Assembly: GCA_029556545.1 (NCBI GenBank)
Contig: JAKQEQ010000077.1
Span: 1-8,151, forward strand
DNA length: 8,151 nucleotides
Reading direction: 5' to 3'
Source of the DNA: Candidatus Hydrogenedentota bacterium
GTDB lineage: Bacteria; Hydrogenedentota; Hydrogenedentia; Hydrogenedentales; JAGMZX01
The notes under the pieces were generated by a model, which was given only the letters and a program-made list of their open reading frames with translations, did not search any database and was not told the DNA's origin. Of this stretch, positions 417 to 7,854 are shown piece after piece. Numbering within the stretch: the stretch's first letter is position 1; each line of letters begins with the position of its first letter. The translations under genes were made by a program, and so were the position numbers.

Positions 417-3400
417 CTACTGGCACGGATTCGGCAACGAGAGGTAGGTTTTAAAAAGACCCAGGGCGTCCGCTGGTGTGACGGATCCGTCGCAAGGCGC
501 GGCGCTGCCCGCGCCGCAGAGATCGGCGGCGCAATACTGTTCCTCGGTTGGCGCTTGGTTGGCGCAATCCAAATAATAGAAGAACGCGAGCTGCGCATCG
601 GCGGGGGTGATCAGGCCGTCGCCGGTCGGATCGCCGTCATGCACGCAGAGCACCGGCGTGGCCGAAGGAAGCGGGGTGAAGGTGGCAGTTGGCTCAGGCG
701 TAGGCGTGGCGGCTGGGGGAACAGTCGGAGATGGGGTGGGGCTGTATGCGGGCGTGGCGGTCGAAGTTGGCGGGAAGGCCGGCGTGGACGTGGATGTCCA
801 CGTGGGCGCTGGGGTTGGCGTAGTGCTCGCTGCCCCGGTCGGGGTTGGCGTCGCGTCCACATGATAGACGACGTATTCGGTCCACACCTCGTCCGTGGCG
901 GTGATTTGGGCCGACTCCAGGGCGGCGGGCGCGCTGCCGAACGTCAGCGGAAGGAAAAAACCGTCGCCAGCGGCGCCCAATGTGTAACTCGGCACATAGG
1001 CCGCCGTGTCCACCTGCCACGCCGCCCAATAGTCGCCAGCCGGCAGGTCCAGGGTCGGCGGCGAACCGCTGGCAACCGGGACCACCAATTCGGCCTCCTC
1101 AGCCGTGTTCGCCACCGGCCCCGATTGCCACAGAAGAGTCTTCGGTTCACCATTGGCATAAAGCGCCAGGCGGACGTTCCCCGCGGCGGCATGGCTGTAG
1201 AAACGCACCTGGTCGATGCCGCCCGCTTCCGGCAGGTCGAACCGCGTCCCCTTCAGAAAGCCTTGTTGATTGAGCGCTACTTTGACCACGCCCCCCGGAT
1301 AGGTGTTCATGCCGAAGTAGGCGAATCCGCCCGCGGGATCGATTACCACGTTGTCAAGGCTACCATCCCCAGCGCTGAGCCCGAGAGCGCCGGCGCGAGT
1401 GAACGTGGCGAGATCGATCTTCACCACGAACGCCGGATAGGTGCGGGTGCCGAAATAGGCGAACCCGCCCGCGGGATCGACCGCCGCGCTGTAAAGGCTA
1501 CTTTCCCCAGCGTTGAGCGTGATAGCGCCGGCGCGGGTGAACGTGGCGAGATCGATCTTCACCACGCGCCCTAGAGTTGTGCTGTTGCCGAAGTAGGCGA
1601 ATCCGCCCGCGGGATCGACCACCGCGCTAACAAGGCCACCTTCCCCAGCGTTCAGCGTGACGGCGCCGACGCGAGTGTACGTGGCAAGATCAATCTTCAC
1701 CACGCGCCCAGGATTGTCGCCGGTACCGAAGTAGGCGAATCCGCCCGCGGGATCGACCGCCGCGCTGTAAAGGTAACCTTCCCCCGCGTTGAGCGTGATG
1801 GCTCCGGCGCGGGTGAAGGTGGCGAGATCGATCTTCACCACGCGCCCCGGGGATGAGGAGGTGCCGAAGTAGGCGAAGCCGCCCGCGGGATCGATCGCCG
1901 CACTGTAAAGGATATTTTCCTCCGCGTTGAGCGTGATGGCGCCGGCGTGGGTGAACGTGGCGAGATCGATCTTCACCACGCGCCCCGGGGATGAGAAGGT
2001 GCCGAAGTAGGCGAATCCGCCCGCGGGATCGGCCACCGCGCTGACTAAGGAATGTTCGCCTTCGTTAAGCCTGATGGCTCCGGCGCGGGTGAACGTGGCG
2101 AGATCGATCTTTACCACGCTCACCGGTTCGGCGGCGGTGCCGAAGTAGGCGAATCCACCCGCGGGGTCGATCGCTGCGGAGGTGAACCAAATCTCAGTGT
2201 CGAGAGCGATCCCTGCGTTGCGGCCGAACGAGAGCATGATTTTCACGACCCGTCCGGGGTCGGTATCGGTGCCGAAATAGGCCGCGCCGCGTTCGGGATC
2301 CACTATCGCGCAGTAAAGAAGCTCCTCCTGTTGGTCGAGGGTGATGGCGCTCGCGCGGCTGAAGCTGGCGAGATCGATCTGCACCACGCGTCCAGGAGCG
2401 GTGCGTGTGCCGAAGTAAGCGGTTCCGCCCGCAGGATCCATCACCCCGCAATACAGATTATTCTCACCGTCGCTGAATGTGACCGCGCCAACGCGGCTGA
2501 ACGGATCGAGATCGATCTTCACCACGCGTCCAGGGCTCGTGCGGGTGCCGAAGTAGGCGAAGCCGCCCTCAGGATCGATCACCGCAGTAAACAGGTAATT
2601 CTCGCCGGTGTTGAGCGTGAGCCCGCCAACGCGGCTGAACGAAGCAAGATCGATTTTTACGATCCGTCCCGGCTGGCTGTACGTGCCGAAATACGCGGCA
2701 CCGGCGGCGGGATCGATCGCGGCGGAGTAAAGTCTGCTCTCGCCGGTACCGAGATTGATGGCGTCGGCGCGGCTGAACGAAGCGAGATCGATCTTCACCA
2801 CGCGGCCGGGAGAGGTGTCCGTGCCGAAATAAGCGAAGCCGCCCGCGGGGTCAATCGCCGCGCTAACCAATTTATCTTCCCCCGCATTGAGTATGATGGC
2901 TCCGGCGCGGGTGAACGTGGCGAGATTGATCTTCACCACGCGCCCCGGAGATGTCGCTGTGCCAAAGTAAGCAAATCCGCTTGCCGGATCGATCACCGCG
3001 GACTTAATAACATCCTCTCCGAAAAGAAGCGATTTGACGGCGACGCGGCTGAATGAAGCTAGATCGACCTTCACCACGCGCCCCGGGGACGTCTCTGTGC
3101 CAAAGTAAGCAAACCCGCTCGCCGAATCGATCACCGCAACGTGCAGGGACGTCTCGCCGGTGAAAAAGGTGATATGGCCGGAGCTGCTTAACGAGGCGAG
3201 TTTGAGTTTCACCACGCGGCCCGGGGAGACATTGGCACCAAAGTAGGCGAATCCGCCCAGTTCATCGATCGCCGCGCAGAGGAGACCGTTCTCACCGGGG
3301 TTGAGCGCGAGCGCGCCCGTGCGGCTGAACGAGGCGAGATCGACCTTCACCACGCGCCCGGGCGAGGTGTCTGTGCTGAAGTAGGCGCACCGTTCAGCGG

Positions 3401-5615
3401 AATTGATCACTGCGGCGCGCAAGTTATTCTCGCCGGAAGGGAGGCTAATGGCGCCGGTTCGGCTGAATGAGGCGAGATCGACTTTCACCACCTTGCCGGG
3501 GGACGTATCAGTGCCAAAGCAGGCGCAGCCATCGGCGGCACTGACCACCGCGGAGCATAAGTAATTCTCGCCAGTCTGGAGGCTAATGGCGCCAGCCCGG
3601 CTGAATGATGCGAGATCGACCTTGGCCACGCGGCCAGGATAGGTGTAAGTGCCGAAGTAGGCAAAGCCGGCCGCCAGATCGGCCGCCGCCGCGCGCAGGT
3701 AACTTTCGCCGGTATTAAGCATGATGGCATTGACGCGGCTGAACGAGGCGAGATCGATCTTCACCACGCGGCCGGGAGAGGTGTCCGTGCCGAAGTAGGC
3801 GAAGCCGTCGGCGGGATCGATCACCGCGCTGCGCAAAGAATCCTCGCCCGCGGTCAGTATGATCGCGCCAGCGCGGCTGAAAGGATCGAGATCTATTTTT
3901 ACCACGCGTCCGGGAGCTGTATTGGTGCCGAAGTAGGCGAAGCCGCCCGTTGGGTCGATCGCCGCGCTGGCTAAATAGCTCTCCCCAGCGCCGAGCGTGA
4001 TAGCGTCGGTACGGGTGAACGAGGCGAGATTGATCTTCACCACGCGTCCCGGAGAGGTGTAAGTGCCGAAATAAGCGAAGCCGGCCGATGAGTCGATCAC
4101 TGCGCTGCACACATTATTCTCGCCAATGTCCAAATCGAGGCCGTCGGCGCGGTTGAACTGGGGGATCCTTATCTTCACCACGCGCCCCGGCGATGTATCT
4201 GTACCGAAGTAGATGAATGCGCCCGAGGTATCGACCGCCGCGCTGCGAAGGACACTTTCCCCCGCGTTGAGCGTGATGGCGCCGGCGCGGGTGAACGTGG
4301 CGAGATTGATCTTCACCACGCGCCCCGGCGAGGTGCAGGTACCGAAGTAGACGAATCCGCCTGCGGGAGCGGCCGCCGCGCAGCGAAGGTCATCTTCGCC
4401 TTCGTTGAGTGTGATCGCACCGGTGCGGGTAAACGAGGCGAGATTTATCTTCACCACGCGCCCCGGCCAGGTGTCGGTGCCGAAGTAGGCGAAGCCGCCC
4501 GTGGAATCGACCGCCACGCAGCGAGGGTAGTCTTCACCCGTGTTGAGCGTGATGGCGCTGGCGCGGGTGAACGAGGCGAGGTCGATCTTCACCACGCGCC
4601 CCGGCGAGGTGTCGGTGCCGAAGTAGGCGAAGCCGCCCGTGGGGGCGACTGCCGCGCAGCCAAGGAAGTTTTCGTCGGGGTTGAGCGTGATGGCGCCGGC
4701 ACGGGTGAACGTGGCAAGATCGATCTTCACCACGAGTCCTGGCGAGGTAAATGTGCCGAAGTAAGCGAAGCCGCCCGCGGGGGCGACTGCCGCGCTGTAA
4801 AGGTTGTCTTCGCCCGTGTTGAGCGTGATGGCGCCGGCGCGGGTGAACGTGGCAAGATCGATCTTCACCACGCGCCCCGGCTGGGTGTCGGTGCCGAAGT
4901 AGGCGAATCCGCCCGCGGGGTCGATCACCGCGCTGTAAAGTTTCTTTTCGCCCGAGTTGAGCGTGATGGCGTCGGCGCGGGTAAACGTGGCGAGATCGAT
5001 CTTCACCACGCGGCCGGGATTGGTGTCCCCGCCCGTGCCGAAGTAGGCGAAGCCAGCAGCGGGATCGATCACCGCACTGCGCAAACTATCCTCCCAATGG
5101 CCGAGGATGGAGTCCATCCGGCGCATCCCCCCGTCCGGATAATCGGGGGTCCCTGGCGCGGAGTGGCCCGCCGCCGGATCGCTGAACTGCAACGAGCGGT
5201 CAGTGATCGAGTGCCCCGCGGCATCCGTCACCGTCAGCGCCACGGCATAGACCCGTTCGTCCATGTCCGCCGCGGTCCATTCCCCCTCGTACAGCGCCAC
5301 CCGCCCGCCGTCCGCTAGCAGCGCCGCCCCGGCGATCTGTTTCTGCTTCAATTCCAGCCTCGCCAACCCTCCCAAATCAGCCGTCACCGAGGCGACGGAT
5401 TCCCGCGACTTCACCAACGCGCTCACAGTGAGCGTCTGCCCGGGTTTCAGCGAACAAGGGCGCAGCGAGGGAATCACCCGGATCTGCCCGTCGCCGCTGC
5501 CCATCGCCGCCGCCTCTCCTCCTGCCCGCGCGCCCGCCGTTCCAAGCCAAGCGAAGGTTAGGATCATCAGCGCGAACGCCCCCCATCGGCGCCAAACCGC
5601 GGTGTTTTGAATCAT
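417..5615 (-). CDS. Secreted giant beta-propeller repeat protein with dockerin-like C-terminus
   Basis: The gene encodes a 1732-residue exported protein. Residues 1-31 form a signal peptide: Arg at 9-10, a hydrophobic core (AFALMILTFAWLG), and a likely cut after ARA. Residues about 42-147 look like an Ig-type beta domain, and a Pro/Gly-rich hinge follows. Residues 178-1452 hold 28 repeats of about 46 residues. Their core is FAYFGTxTSPGRVVKIDLA, then TFTRAGAITLNAGE, resembling YVTN/SMP-30-like propeller blades. Residues 1453-1586 form a further beta-rich domain, 1589-1654 a Thr/Pro/Ser linker, and 1655-1732 a dockerin-like domain. The likely role is surface display or assembly onto a cell-envelope or extracellular complex; substrate and partner are unknown. 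I start it at 5615 because GGAGGA lies 8 bases upstream and a hydrophobic leader follows. An in-frame ATG at 5681 lies at or before the predicted transcript start. The gene has its own promoter and appears monocistronic. No frameshift or internal stop is present. Certain as a coding region; function inferred. Confidence 0.95.
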   Translation of the reverse strand: MIQNTAVWRRWGAFALMILTFAWLGTAGARAGGEAAAMGSGDGQIRVIPSLRPCSLKPGQTLTVSALVKSRESVASVTADLGGLARLELKQKQIAGAALLADGGRVALYEGEWTAADMDERVYAVALTVTDAAGHSITDRSLQFSDPAAGHSAPGTPDYPDGGMRRMDSILGHWEDSLRSAVIDPAAGFAYFGTGGDTNPGRVVKIDLATFTRADAITLNSGEKKLYSAVIDPAGGFAYFGTDTQPGRVVKIDLATFTRAGAITLNTGEDNLYSAAVAPAGGFAYFGTFTSPGLVVKIDLATFTRAGAITLNPDENFLGCAAVAPTGGFAYFGTDTSPGRVVKIDLASFTRASAITLNTGEDYPRCVAVDSTGGFAYFGTDTWPGRVVKINLASFTRTGAITLNEGEDDLRCAAAAPAGGFVYFGTCTSPGRVVKINLATFTRAGAITLNAGESVLRSAAVDTSGAFIYFGTDTSPGRVVKIRIPQFNRADGLDLDIGENNVCSAVIDSSAGFAYFGTYTSPGRVVKINLASFTRTDAITLGAGESYLASAAIDPTGGFAYFGTNTAPGRVVKIDLDPFSRAGAIILTAGEDSLRSAVIDPADGFAYFGTDTSPGRVVKIDLASFSRVNAIMLNTGESYLRAAAADLAAGFAYFGTYTYPGRVAKVDLASFSRAGAISLQTGENYLCSAVVSAADGCACFGTDTSPGKVVKVDLASFSRTGAISLPSGENNLRAAVINSAERCAYFSTDTSPGRVVKVDLASFSRTGALALNPGENGLLCAAIDELGGFAYFGANVSPGRVVKLKLASLSSSGHITFFTGETSLHVAVIDSASGFAYFGTETSPGRVVKVDLASFSRVAVKSLLFGEDVIKSAVIDPASGFAYFGTATSPGRVVKINLATFTRAGAIILNAGEDKLVSAAIDPAGGFAYFGTDTSPGRVVKIDLASFSRADAINLGTGESRLYSAAIDPAAGAAYFGTYSQPGRIVKIDLASFSRVGGLTLNTGENYLFTAVIDPEGGFAYFGTRTSPGRVVKIDLDPFSRVGAVTFSDGENNLYCGVMDPAGGTAYFGTRTAPGRVVQIDLASFSRASAITLDQQEELLYCAIVDPERGAAYFGTDTDPGRVVKIMLSFGRNAGIALDTEIWFTSAAIDPAGGFAYFGTAAEPVSVVKIDLATFTRAGAIRLNEGEHSLVSAVADPAGGFAYFGTFSSPGRVVKIDLATFTHAGAITLNAEENILYSAAIDPAGGFAYFGTSSSPGRVVKIDLATFTRAGAITLNAGEGYLYSAAVDPAGGFAYFGTGDNPGRVVKIDLATYTRVGAVTLNAGEGGLVSAVVDPAGGFAYFGNSTTLGRVVKIDLATFTRAGAITLNAGESSLYSAAVDPAGGFAYFGTRTYPAFVVKIDLATFTRAGALGLSAGDGSLDNVVIDPAGGFAYFGMNTYPGGVVKVALNQQGFLKGTRFDLPEAGGIDQVRFYSHAAAGNVRLALYANGEPKTLLWQSGPVANTAEEAELVVPVASGSPPTLDLPAGDYWAAWQVDTAAYVPSYTLGAAGDGFFLPLTFGSAPAALESAQITATDEVWTEYVVYHVDATPTPTGAASTTPTPAPTWTSTSTPAFPPTSTATPAYSPTPSPTVPPAATPTPEPTATFTPLPSATPVLCVHDGDPTGDGLITPADAQLAFFYYLDCANQAPTEEQYCAADLCGAGSAAPCDGSVTPADALGLFKTYLSLPNPCQ
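420..653 (-). other. Dockerin-like Ca-binding domain with six cysteines (residues 1655-1732)
   Basis: The first EF-hand-like loop is DPTGDGLITPAD (residues 1662-1673), with Asp at loop positions 1, 5 and 12, followed by a helix (AQLAFFYYL). The second half has CDGSVTPADALGLF, where Asp1709 and Asp1716 fit positions 5 and 12. Position 1 is Ala instead of Asp, and an insertion (LCGAGSAAP) precedes the loop, so the second site may not bind calcium in the usual way. Cysteines at 1657, 1684, 1695, 1700, 1708 and 1731 could form three disulfides, fitting an extracytoplasmic location. Type I dockerins bind cohesins; no cohesin is visible in this window. Confidence 0.75.
654..851 (-). other. Thr/Pro/Ser-rich linker (residues 1589-1654)
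   Basis: A low-complexity stretch dominated by TPTP, TSTSTP and TATP units joins the beta-rich domain to the dockerin-like end. Linkers of this kind are usually extended, flexible and often O-glycosylated in secreted multidomain proteins. The DNA is correspondingly biased, which produces long meaningless open frames on the opposite strand. Confidence 0.85.
858..1259 (-). other. Beta-rich domain after the repeats (residues 1453-1586)
   Basis: This roughly 134-residue stretch follows the last partial blade. It has alternating hydrophobic strands such as IDQVRFYSHAAAGNVRLALY, an aromatic pair (LLWQSG, YWAAWQVD) and a Gly/Asp turn (GAAGDGFF). The pattern suggests a jelly-roll or carbohydrate-binding-like fold that reports on a small ligand or glycan. 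No catalytic motif is visible. The fold call is inferred from pattern only. Confidence 0.5.
1260..5084 (-). repeat. Array of 28 tandem 138-bp coding repeats (beta-propeller blades)
   Basis: Twenty-seven full units and one half unit lie head to tail in one frame. Unit length is 46 residues (138 bp), except the first (48) and the twenty-first (44). Invariant features are FAYFGT, PGRVVKI and a closing GE. The second half of the unit diverges in repeats 7 (IRIPQFNRADGLDLDIGE), 14 (LKLASLSSSGHITFFTGE), 21 (IMLSFGRNAGIALDTEIW) and 28 (truncated). Repeat 15 is also unusual (RVAVKSLLFGE). Repeats 1-6 and 22-27 mostly carry LATFTR or LASFTR, while most of 9-20 carry LASFSR, so the array grew by block duplication. 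Each unit matches the length of a four-stranded propeller blade. Confidence 0.95.
5175..5492 (-). other. Ig-like N-terminal domain of the repeat protein (residues about 42-147)
   Basis: After the signal peptide the protein has a beta-sandwich-like pattern: QIRVIPSLRPCSLKPGQTLT, then VSALVKSRESVASVTADLGG, and finally YAVALTVTDAAGHSITDRSL. The closing Val-Thr-Asp-Ala-Ala-Gly stretch is typical of bacterial Ig/cadherin-like modules found ahead of other extracellular domains. It is probably a structural spacer between the secretion signal and the propellers. Confidence 0.5.
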
Positions 5616-5623
5616 AGTGCTAT

Positions 5624-5629
5624 TCCTCC
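5624..5629 (-). promoter_or_regulatory. Ribosome binding site GGAGGA
   Basis: On the minus strand GGAGGA is followed by 8 bases and then the ATG at 5615. It is a near-ideal Shine-Dalgarno sequence and decides the start: the longer frame beginning at 5681 has no such signal and would place 22 hydrophilic residues before the signal peptide. Confidence 0.9.
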
Positions 5630-5686
5630 GAGCGCTTGTGGCAGGCCAATGAACCATCCGAGAGCGCCATCCCGAATTCATGGTTC

Positions 5687-5954: not shown

Positions 5955-7009
5955 ATGTGTGACCTAGGCCGATTCAGCCCGTTGAAAGATCCCGAGATCC
6001 GGACCCGCGCGGATGCCAACCGTTACCGGTCGCTTCACTCCCGCGCGGCGGCGAAGCTGGCCGGTTCCCAGAAGGAGACGGACGCGCTTCGTGCCCAGAT
6101 CAAGGCATTGAAGTTGGAGCGGCGACGCTGCGGGCCCGGATCCAGGAACTGGAGAAAGAGGCCTCGTCGCTGCGGGAGAAGCACGAACACCTGCCATCGG
6201 TGAACAGCTATCTCCGGCGGCTGGTGTTCTCACCGAAGTCGGAAGCGGGCGAAGCGCCCGGCTCGCCGACGCCGGCGCCGGGAAGCGCAAGCGGGGGCAG
6301 CAGCGGGGATCGCCGGGGCACGGGTGCAAACGGCGCCTCAGCCTGCCCGCCGTTGAGCGCATCCGCGATTTCCCGGAGGGTCCGCCCCATTGTCCGTTTT
6401 TGCAGGCTGGTTTACTTCGAAACCGGGGCGACGGAAGATTCGGATGAAATCGATTGGACCGTCCAGTTGATCCGCCGGGTCCACCGGCGCAAATAATACG
6501 CGCGCGGCTGCCATTGCCAGGGCGCGGCCCGGGTTGCGACAGCGCCCGGGCCGGCCAAACTGTTCCCAAAGTCGGCGTTCACCCATCAGTTCTGGGCGCG
6601 GTTGATCATCGAGAAATTTTATCGTCAGAGACCGTTGAACCGGACGCGCCAACTGCTGGCCGACGAGGGCATGGACGTTTCCTTGGGAACTCTGGTGGAC
6701 GGGCTTCACCGCATCGGCGGTTTGCTACAGCCGCTCTACGGCGAGATTATCCGGCGCAATCAAGCGTCCGGAAGATGGCAGATGGACGAAACGCGGTGGC
6801 GGGTGTTCGAGCAGGCGGAAGGCAAAAAGACATTCCGGTGGTGGCTGTGGGCCGTCCTCTCGCCGGACACGGTGGTGTATCTCCTGGATCCGTCCCGGTC
6901 GCGGGCCGTCCCCCGGAAACATCTCGGACCCGACCCGGAAGGGACGCTCACTGCGGACCGGTGCAGCGTGTATCCCGGGGTGGGCGGCAAGATCCAGGTG
7001 AGCCATTGC
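5955..7009 (+). pseudogene. IS66-family transposase (TnpC), multiply frameshifted and 3'-truncated
   Basis: The reading starts at ATG 5955 (MCDLGRFSPLKDPEIR). A coiled-coil leader shifts frame near 6119 (apparent loss of one G) and continues as LRARIQELEKEASSLREK. It shifts again at about 6240-6265 into the basic GKRKRGQQRGSPGHG segment, and once more at 6400, where an extra T interrupts the zinc ribbon CPFC. A TAA at 6494-6496 breaks RRK-YARGCHC just before the second Cys pair. From 6497 the frame is open through the catalytic domain: GRWQMDETRW gives the first Asp (6785-6787) and LTADRCSVY the second (6956-6958). The gene stops at GGKIQVSHC, so the catalytic Glu and the IS66 C-terminal region are missing. 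It acted on the element ends in the cytoplasm; it is now dead. Confidence 0.9.
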
Positions 7010-7012
7010 TAA

Positions 7013-7195: not shown

Positions 7196-7854
7196 GCTCA
7201 TATCCGCGGGCTCGTTGAACTGCCTCCGCCCGGGTGCCAGCCGGCCCGGGCTCAGCCGCGGCGAGGCTACCTGTGCCCTCCGGGTCCACCCGTCGAAACG
7301 CCCACGGGCGGACTCGGCCCGCTAGAACTCCGGCTGGCGCGGACGAAACAGGATTCGCGGCTCTGGAACGAAGCCATCGACCGTTATCACTACCTTGGCT
7401 ATTGCCCGGTCCCTGGCGATCAAGCGCGCTACCTCGTGAGCGCGCGGGGGACGTTGCTCGGCGCCCTCGGCTTCAGCGCCGCGGCGTGGACGGTGGCCCC
7501 GCGCGATGCGTCCAGCGGCTGCGGTTCGCGGCGAACAATTCCAGGTTCCTGATCCTGCCCTGGGCGCGCTCGAAAAATCTGGCGTCCCGCATCCTGGCCG
7601 CGGCGGCGAGGTCGCTGCCGGGCGATTCGGATGCTCTTTACGGCTACGCGCCTGTGCTGCTCGAAACCTTTGTTGACAGCCCCAAAAAATATAAAGGAAC
7701 TTGTTACCGCGCATCAAATTGGATCCACGTCGGGCGAACCACAGGCAGGGGCAAGCTGGAGAAGCGGGAGCGCCAGGCCGTTCCCATCAGAGATATCTTT
7801 CTGTATCCACTGCGCCCTGATTTTCGGAACGTTTTGTGTGCCGATCTTTCATAG
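7196..7854 (+). pseudogene. DruA-like (DUF4338) gene remnant, N-terminally truncated and frameshifted
   Basis: The first frame (7196 to about 7502) reads GLVELPPP, then LWNEAIDRYHYLGYCPVPGD and LLGALGFSAAAWTVAPRD. The second frame (about 7508-7854) reads RFAANNSRFLILPWARSKNL, then LLETFVDSPKKYKGTCYRAS, then NWIHVGRTTGRGK and IFLYPLRPDFRNVLC. These are the signature blocks of DUF4338, the family of Druantia protein DruA, also widespread as solitary genes near transposases. Between the frames the usual block around IGWS is missing, so a deletion of roughly 40 bases plus a shift occurred near 7503-7510. The N-terminal winged-helix-like region is gone, replaced by the foldback insertion and the IS66 piece. 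The stop TAG (7852-7854) overlaps the first base of the right terminal repeat. It is inactive as it stands. Confidence 0.85.

Follow-up and report, generated by a model that had tools for sequence, protein, structure and literature searches.

A 28-blade protein of Candidatus Hydrogenedentota, predicted to form four tandem seven-bladed beta-propellers with deviant blades at the ring junctions

We describe a long gene of a Candidatus Hydrogenedentota bacterium, the product of which very probably contains four consecutive seven-bladed beta-propellers, with deviant blades situated at the ring junctions. We hold this view with high confidence whichever way the individual rings close. Four tandem propellers had already been proposed in a preliminary description made from the sequence alone, and the proposal is now supported by blade counts of relatives, which run in sevens, by an insert in a related protein of Bathyarchaeota (L096), and by a predicted structure of residues 178-850. 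In our model, one blade type of 46 residues would build all four propellers in the middle of the protein. Ahead of blade 1, a lone strand D would open the chain of rings, which would finish after strand C of the last blade. At every seventh blade, the chain would skip the ordinary C-D hairpin and pass to the next ring (or, at blade 28, leave the array); presumably because of this passage, the consensus is lost at the end of strand C, in the C-D turn and in strand D. Blades would multiply and be homogenised singly, and only chains that complete every ring would persist, which would keep the blade number a multiple of seven.

The analysed stretch of DNA (the window) is one whole contig of 8151 bases (C76 of genome G000). 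The genome comprises 6.1 Mb in 195 contigs, and no further copy of the propeller gene was found in it. The features of the gene are collected in Table 1. Its array consists of 28 units of 46 aa (window 1224-5087, aa 199-1486), spaced by 46 aa throughout except for unit 1 (+2) and unit 21 (-2). The 28 blades claimed earlier are thus borne out, in an array slightly wider than the 1260-5084 originally assigned to it. Because the longest exact repeat inside the array is only 47 bp, a mis-assembled copy number is unlikely. A typical unit reads LYSAVIDPAGG in strand A, FAYFGTDTSPG in strand B, RVVKIDLATFTR in strand C and AGAITLNTGEN in strand D. The strands were named by analogy with YVTN-type propellers, and the names agree with the strands of the AlphaFold model.

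Table 1. Features of the propeller gene and its product (positions in the window)
Feature	Position	Strand	Residues	Remarks
Whole gene	417-5681	minus		single ORF, 1754 aa
N-terminal conserved region	5148..5486	minus	66-178	'..TDRSLQFSDPAAG..', common to many relatives
Strand D0 ahead of blade 1	5088..5141	minus	181-198	PDGGMRRMDSILGHWEDS
Predicted ring 1, blades 1-7	4116..5087	minus	199-522	sequence and two-ring AlphaFold model
Predicted ring 2, blades 8-14	3150..4115	minus	523-844	sequence and two-ring AlphaFold model
Putative ring 3, blades 15-21	2190..3149	minus	845-1164	sequence; in the off-phase model, a ring begins at this point and has eight blades, with low confidence
Putative ring 4, blades 22-28	1224..2189	minus	1165-1486	sequence only
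Deviant segment, blade 7	4116..4169	minus	505-522	end of strand C, C-D turn, strand D
Deviant segment, blade 14	3150..3203	minus	827-844	disordered as chain end of the two-ring model
Deviant segment, blade 21	2190..2237	minus	1149-1164	two residues shorter
Exit of blade 28	1224..1277	minus	1469-1486	without propeller strand D, runs into the C-terminal domain
C-terminal all-beta domain, ~140 aa	846..1265	minus	1473-1612	jelly-roll-like by eye
Thr/Pro-rich linker	651..845	minus	1613-1677	sequence
Dockerin-like C-terminus	420..650	minus	1678-1754	two 'DG.[IV]TPADA' segments, by eye

Every seventh unit departs from the consensus. In the motif VVKI[D/N]L, 24 of the 28 units keep the D/N; the exceptions are units 7, 14, 21 and 28, which have R, K, M and A there, respectively. 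Leave-one-out profile scores of whole units, obtained with no period built in, assign the four lowest values among the 28 units to units 28, 21, 14 and 7; for the stated period and phase, the chance of this outcome is 1 in 20,475. The deviance of unit 28 is partly expected from its place at the array end. With this unit excluded, units 7, 14 and 21 are the three lowest of the other 27 (chance 1 in 2,925). The earlier observation of deviant seventh blades was therefore correct, as was the remark that blade 15 is unusual, since this unit is the next most deviant for the C-D half. Units 7, 14 and 21 stay near consensus up to VVK[I/L] of strand C, beyond which their C-D turn and strand D have an altered sequence. 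Split by region, the window's loss is largest for the C-D turn (-1.96), followed by the A-B turn (-1.83) and strand D (-1.33); the B-C loop and strand A show almost none. In the propeller fold, the A-B turns are found on the same side as the C-D turns. The suggestion that deviant blades close a ring or connect it to the next fits with the deviation falling mainly on the end of strand C, the C-D turn and strand D.

A two-ring AlphaFold model was built for residues 178-850 (D0, blades 1-14 and D14) from an alignment with 22 other rows. Its mean pLDDT is 92.6 and its pTM 0.72; all strands are in place and only D14 is disordered, as would be expected if a two-ring chain ends at C14. D0 forms an ordered strand (model residues 9-16). 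In this model, and by its matches to solved seven-bladed structures, rings 1 and 2 consist of four-stranded blades in closed rings of seven. The best single-ring match is YncE of E. coli (PDB 3VGZ; Z 38.0, rmsd 1.9 A, 299 residues aligned, 18% identity), a YVTN/lactonase-like protein with the same seven-bladed fold in a single ring; the match is one of fold and not of membership. Rings 3 and 4, judged from their sequence, would be closed seven-bladed rings as well.

With the whole protein as query, the genome collection yielded no relatives, but a ring alignment as query recovered 15 loci (in Acidobacteria, Chloroflexota, Planctomycetota, Patescibacteria, Omnitrophota, Desulfobacterales, Bathyarchaeota and others). 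Within the phylum of the window itself, members are present in 13 of 68 genomes, source genome included. The phylum around L012 is rich in them (15 of 40 genomes), the phyla of L022, L010 and L013 yielded few further members (396-400 genomes surveyed each), and phage records gave no match. The family is strongly expanded in two genomes, G1294 and G1295 (L143, L147, L148, L152, L155-L158 and others), with 30 and 19 matches per genome, respectively, and several propeller genes stand side by side on one contig there.

The relatives' frames were cut into blades by a single-blade HMM, which had no ring size built in and was retrained twice on the family. After broken frames and fragments had been set aside, 47 arrays were countable, and 44 of them have 7, 14, 21 or 28 blades by automatic count (in L154, which is among the 44, divergent units lie upstream and were left uncounted). 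Seven blades were counted in 21 arrays (both arrays of L096 included), 14 in 20 arrays, 21 in two and 28 in the window alone; one array has 13 blades and two have six. On inspection, the array of 13 (L097) has a divergent fourteenth blade, and the arrays of six (L143 and L149) run from strands C-D through six full blades to strands A-B, which makes seven, L149 being judged by its equal layout. In these two loci (L143, 2915-5557, plus strand; L149, 3212-5860, plus strand), the differently cut seven-bladed propeller is flanked by hydrophobic segments, in what is probably a membrane protein. Divergent arrays counted by eye have 14 blades in L159, L162 and L164 and 21 blades in L153, L163 and L166. 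L160 (3860-6736, minus strand), also divergent, has 11 blades by eye and is a real exception to the sevens. The array of L060 (2509-7116, minus strand), one of 14 blades, is broken by an in-frame TAG near blade 13.

The junction position is marked in the relatives as well. Among 23 multi-ring arrays, the seventh blade is the weakest (mean z -1.04, permutation p = 5e-5), and it remains so without the window (mean z -0.88, p = 2e-4), the sixth blade being next (-0.60). Between proteins, register-specific similarity of blades has a median of 0.004 and exceeds 0.1 in 3 of 343 pairs, so the arrays look independently amplified or homogenised. That such arrays still keep to sevens is the strongest evidence for the seven-bladed ring.

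Relatives also indicate where the rings begin and end. A lone D strand near consensus stands ahead of blade 1 ('FLRVGALTLNAGEN' in L022, 'FGKLGSLTLNRGDS' in L010), and the chains of L016 and L020 stop directly behind C14; n blades therefore use strands D0 to D(n-1). The Bathyarchaeota protein, L096, has seven blades, a 100-residue insert behind C7, an own D strand 'FARVGALALNAGEN' and seven more blades. A ring boundary is predicted at exactly the site of this insert, between C7 and the following D strand. Pfam recognizes two fn3 stretches in this protein, and the insert, as read from the sequence, is taken as one of them. Length variation at the junction is unremarkable, with a mean departure of 0.92 residues after blade 7 compared to 1.06 after blade 4, and so favours neither mode of ring closure considered below.

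Each ring may close on its own D strand. In the other conceivable topology, the first D strand pairs with the last C strand, as in tandem WD proteins, and the deviant blades mark the packing of ring against ring. This is a variant of the four-ring explanation that differs in topology, not in ring size, and we consider it a serious possibility, if less likely than not. Such closure is known for Pwp2 (WD1 12-343), and most 14-blade relatives have a blade 7 with a fairly normal C-D turn. The match ranges of the two-ring model point the same way: they span approximately 10 to 651 for some 300 aligned residues, one match covers 14-332, and the model thereby suggests that D0 closes ring 2 rather than ring 1, as in Pwp2 and Utp21. 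If D0 closed ring 2, a broken C-D hairpin at blade 7 would be unneeded, which counts against rings that close on their own D strands. In the window, however, the deviation at blades 7, 14 and 21 is strongest in the C-D turn and strand D and less at the D-A turn. The position of the L096 insert also speaks against this topology, which in a four-ring protein would require D0 to extend as far as ring 4.

If the period of seven were a fossil, an ancestral ring would have been duplicated twice as a block, with its deviant blade copied along. The preliminary description noted that blades 1-6 and 22-27 resemble each other, and this holds: protein identity is 0.71-0.73 within and between both blocks compared to 0.60-0.65 elsewhere. 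The greater likeness of rings 1 and 4 is what block duplication could leave behind. The same description expected a period of seven in the whole identity matrix, and here it was not upheld, since sharing a phase does not make units significantly more similar (mod 7 p = 0.13). Normal blades at the same position of different rings are no more identical than those at different positions (for rings 1 and 4, for example, DNA identity is 0.784 and 0.786, respectively), and this likeness is absent in protein and in DNA alike. The period thus leaves no visible record of whole-ring copying. Further, the deviant blades resemble each other less (0.40) than they resemble normal blades (0.48-0.52), and the near-zero register signal between proteins also speaks against copied blocks. 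Later homogenisation could mask such a signal; as none is present, block duplication was set aside as the source of the period, and we regard it as unlikely. By sequence comparison, only the junction units carry the period of seven.

The rings might also be of mixed sizes, for example 7+7+8+6, the deviant blades being accidental. Four closed seven-bladed rings were anticipated at the outset. The model of blades 1-14 yields the first two of them, and a second AlphaFold run, made off phase, instead gives a doubtful eight-bladed ring from blade 15. This run covered blades 11-28 and the C-terminal domain and was started at D10 to test the intrinsic register; its alignment was not neutral, since most rows were without the first four blades. 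The resulting model is weaker (pLDDT 83.3, pTM 0.45), with drops in confidence at three places: D14, D21 together with blade 22, and the end of blade 28. The boundary at 14/15 is present in it and the one at 21/22 is absent. Its matches extend over aa 841-1196 (blades 15-22; model residue 195 is aa 841), with blade 22 at low confidence, and their targets are structures which we take, from general knowledge and from the target titles, to be eight-bladed. The predicted eight-bladed ring counts against four sevens, with low weight. Mixed sizes are not without parallel: WD40 blade fragments form six- to nine-bladed assemblies, and fifteen near-identical WD blades of a fungal protein were predicted as 7+8 (PMC9218822). 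We nevertheless find this explanation very improbable, given the weakness of the off-phase model, the regular positions of the deviant blades and the family counts, nearly all multiples of seven. An open superhelix or solenoid of propeller-like blades, without closed rings, is hardly credible, as we found no evidence supporting it, the model of blades 1-14 matches closed seven-bladed propellers, and the counts in sevens would be left unexplained.

With the four-ring explanation preferred, the protein can be compared to known systems. On the whole protein, no Pfam family matches at E up to 1, hence there is no WD40, YVTN or other propeller match. NCBIfam gives a partial match to L-NosZ (lactonase-type NosZ; E 1.6e-9, 36.9 bits against a cut-off of 700). 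Weak names on the blades (NSs, Amnionless, RlmH and FoxA) were taken as chance repeat matches. Normal blades average 0.60-0.73 in identity, which places the array among highly repetitive, recently amplified propellers, defined by more than 60% pairwise identity of consecutive blades. In the WRAP propeller of Nostoc punctiforme (Npun_R6612, PDB 2YMU), near-identical blades likewise form consecutive seven-bladed rings, closed by a non-repeat strand. WRAP, however, consists of WD40 blades, 14 and not 28, which are practically identical, whereas the normal blades here are about 50-87% alike and every seventh is deviant. The tandem WD proteins Utp21, Pwp2 and Aip1 also have seven-bladed rings in one chain, with a D strand first and a C strand last; they belong to another blade family, have two rings instead of four, and close by the first D with the last C strand. 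The highly repetitive propellers surveyed by Pereira and Lupas (2022) share the many similar consecutive blades. WD40 counts peak there at 7 and 14, yet blade numbers form a continuum reaching 47 blades; for that longest array the ring register could not be told, and structure prediction can fail for such arrays (PMC9218822). In the present family, by contrast, nearly every count is a multiple of seven, and the sequence itself shows the register.

Multi-propeller chains of highly similar blades and tandem seven-bladed WD proteins are therefore already known. New features would be the near-strict counting in sevens despite independent turnover of blades, and possibly the self-closing rings. As a tentative proposal, in which we place limited confidence, we suggest a propeller family, lacking a Pfam model, in which blade numbers advance in steps of seven (7, 14, 21, 28) while blades turn over singly. 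In its long members, each ring would be closed by that ring's own D strand, in contrast to tandem WD proteins. If this is true, growth by whole rings with boundaries legible in the sequence presents a natural test of how repeat proteins keep count. The register can be read here from the sequence and checked against dozens of relatives counting up in sevens. They form a clean set in which to study how blades can be gained while half rings are avoided. One domain in single-, double-, triple- and quadruple-ring versions would also provide material for structural work.

The array is embedded in a protein which is most likely secreted or displayed on the cell surface, as suggested by its signal-peptide-like start and dockerin-like tail. 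Read by eye, the second Met (aa 23) lies upstream of a hydrophobic, signal-peptide-like stretch (aa 33-53). A motif of the TDRSLQFSDPAAG type precedes blade 1 also in L012, L018, L053, L056-L059 and L061. At the other end, the final 18 residues of ring 4 pass into the C-terminal domain, characterised by the motifs '..KGTRFDLPEAG..FYSHAAAGNVRLALY..' and 'KGFLKATRFTMPE..FYSHAAAGNVRLALYD..LLWQS..YWLAWQVDT..'. This domain of about 140 aa has no match in Pfam or NCBIfam, and it is conserved directly behind the last blade in L012, L018, L053-L059, L061-L064, L138-L141, L145, L146, L150 and L155. Residues 1638-1754, which include the dockerin-like tail, gave no match in Pfam, dockerin type I included. 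Relatives carry Calx-beta, PKD, Big, fn3 and beta-helix domains, all of them common in extracellular proteins. From this architecture, the most likely role, at roughly even odds, would be that of a multivalent binding scaffold which is secreted and displayed on the surface, the binding ring being present four times.

Outside of the propeller gene, the plus strand of the window contains an apparently degenerate fragment of an IS66-family transposase (6602-7012; PF03050, E 2e-25, profile positions 13-148 of 284) and a frame with a partial match to DruA (7234-7854; PF14236, E 1e-15, profile positions 125-224 of 297), which also looks like a fragment.
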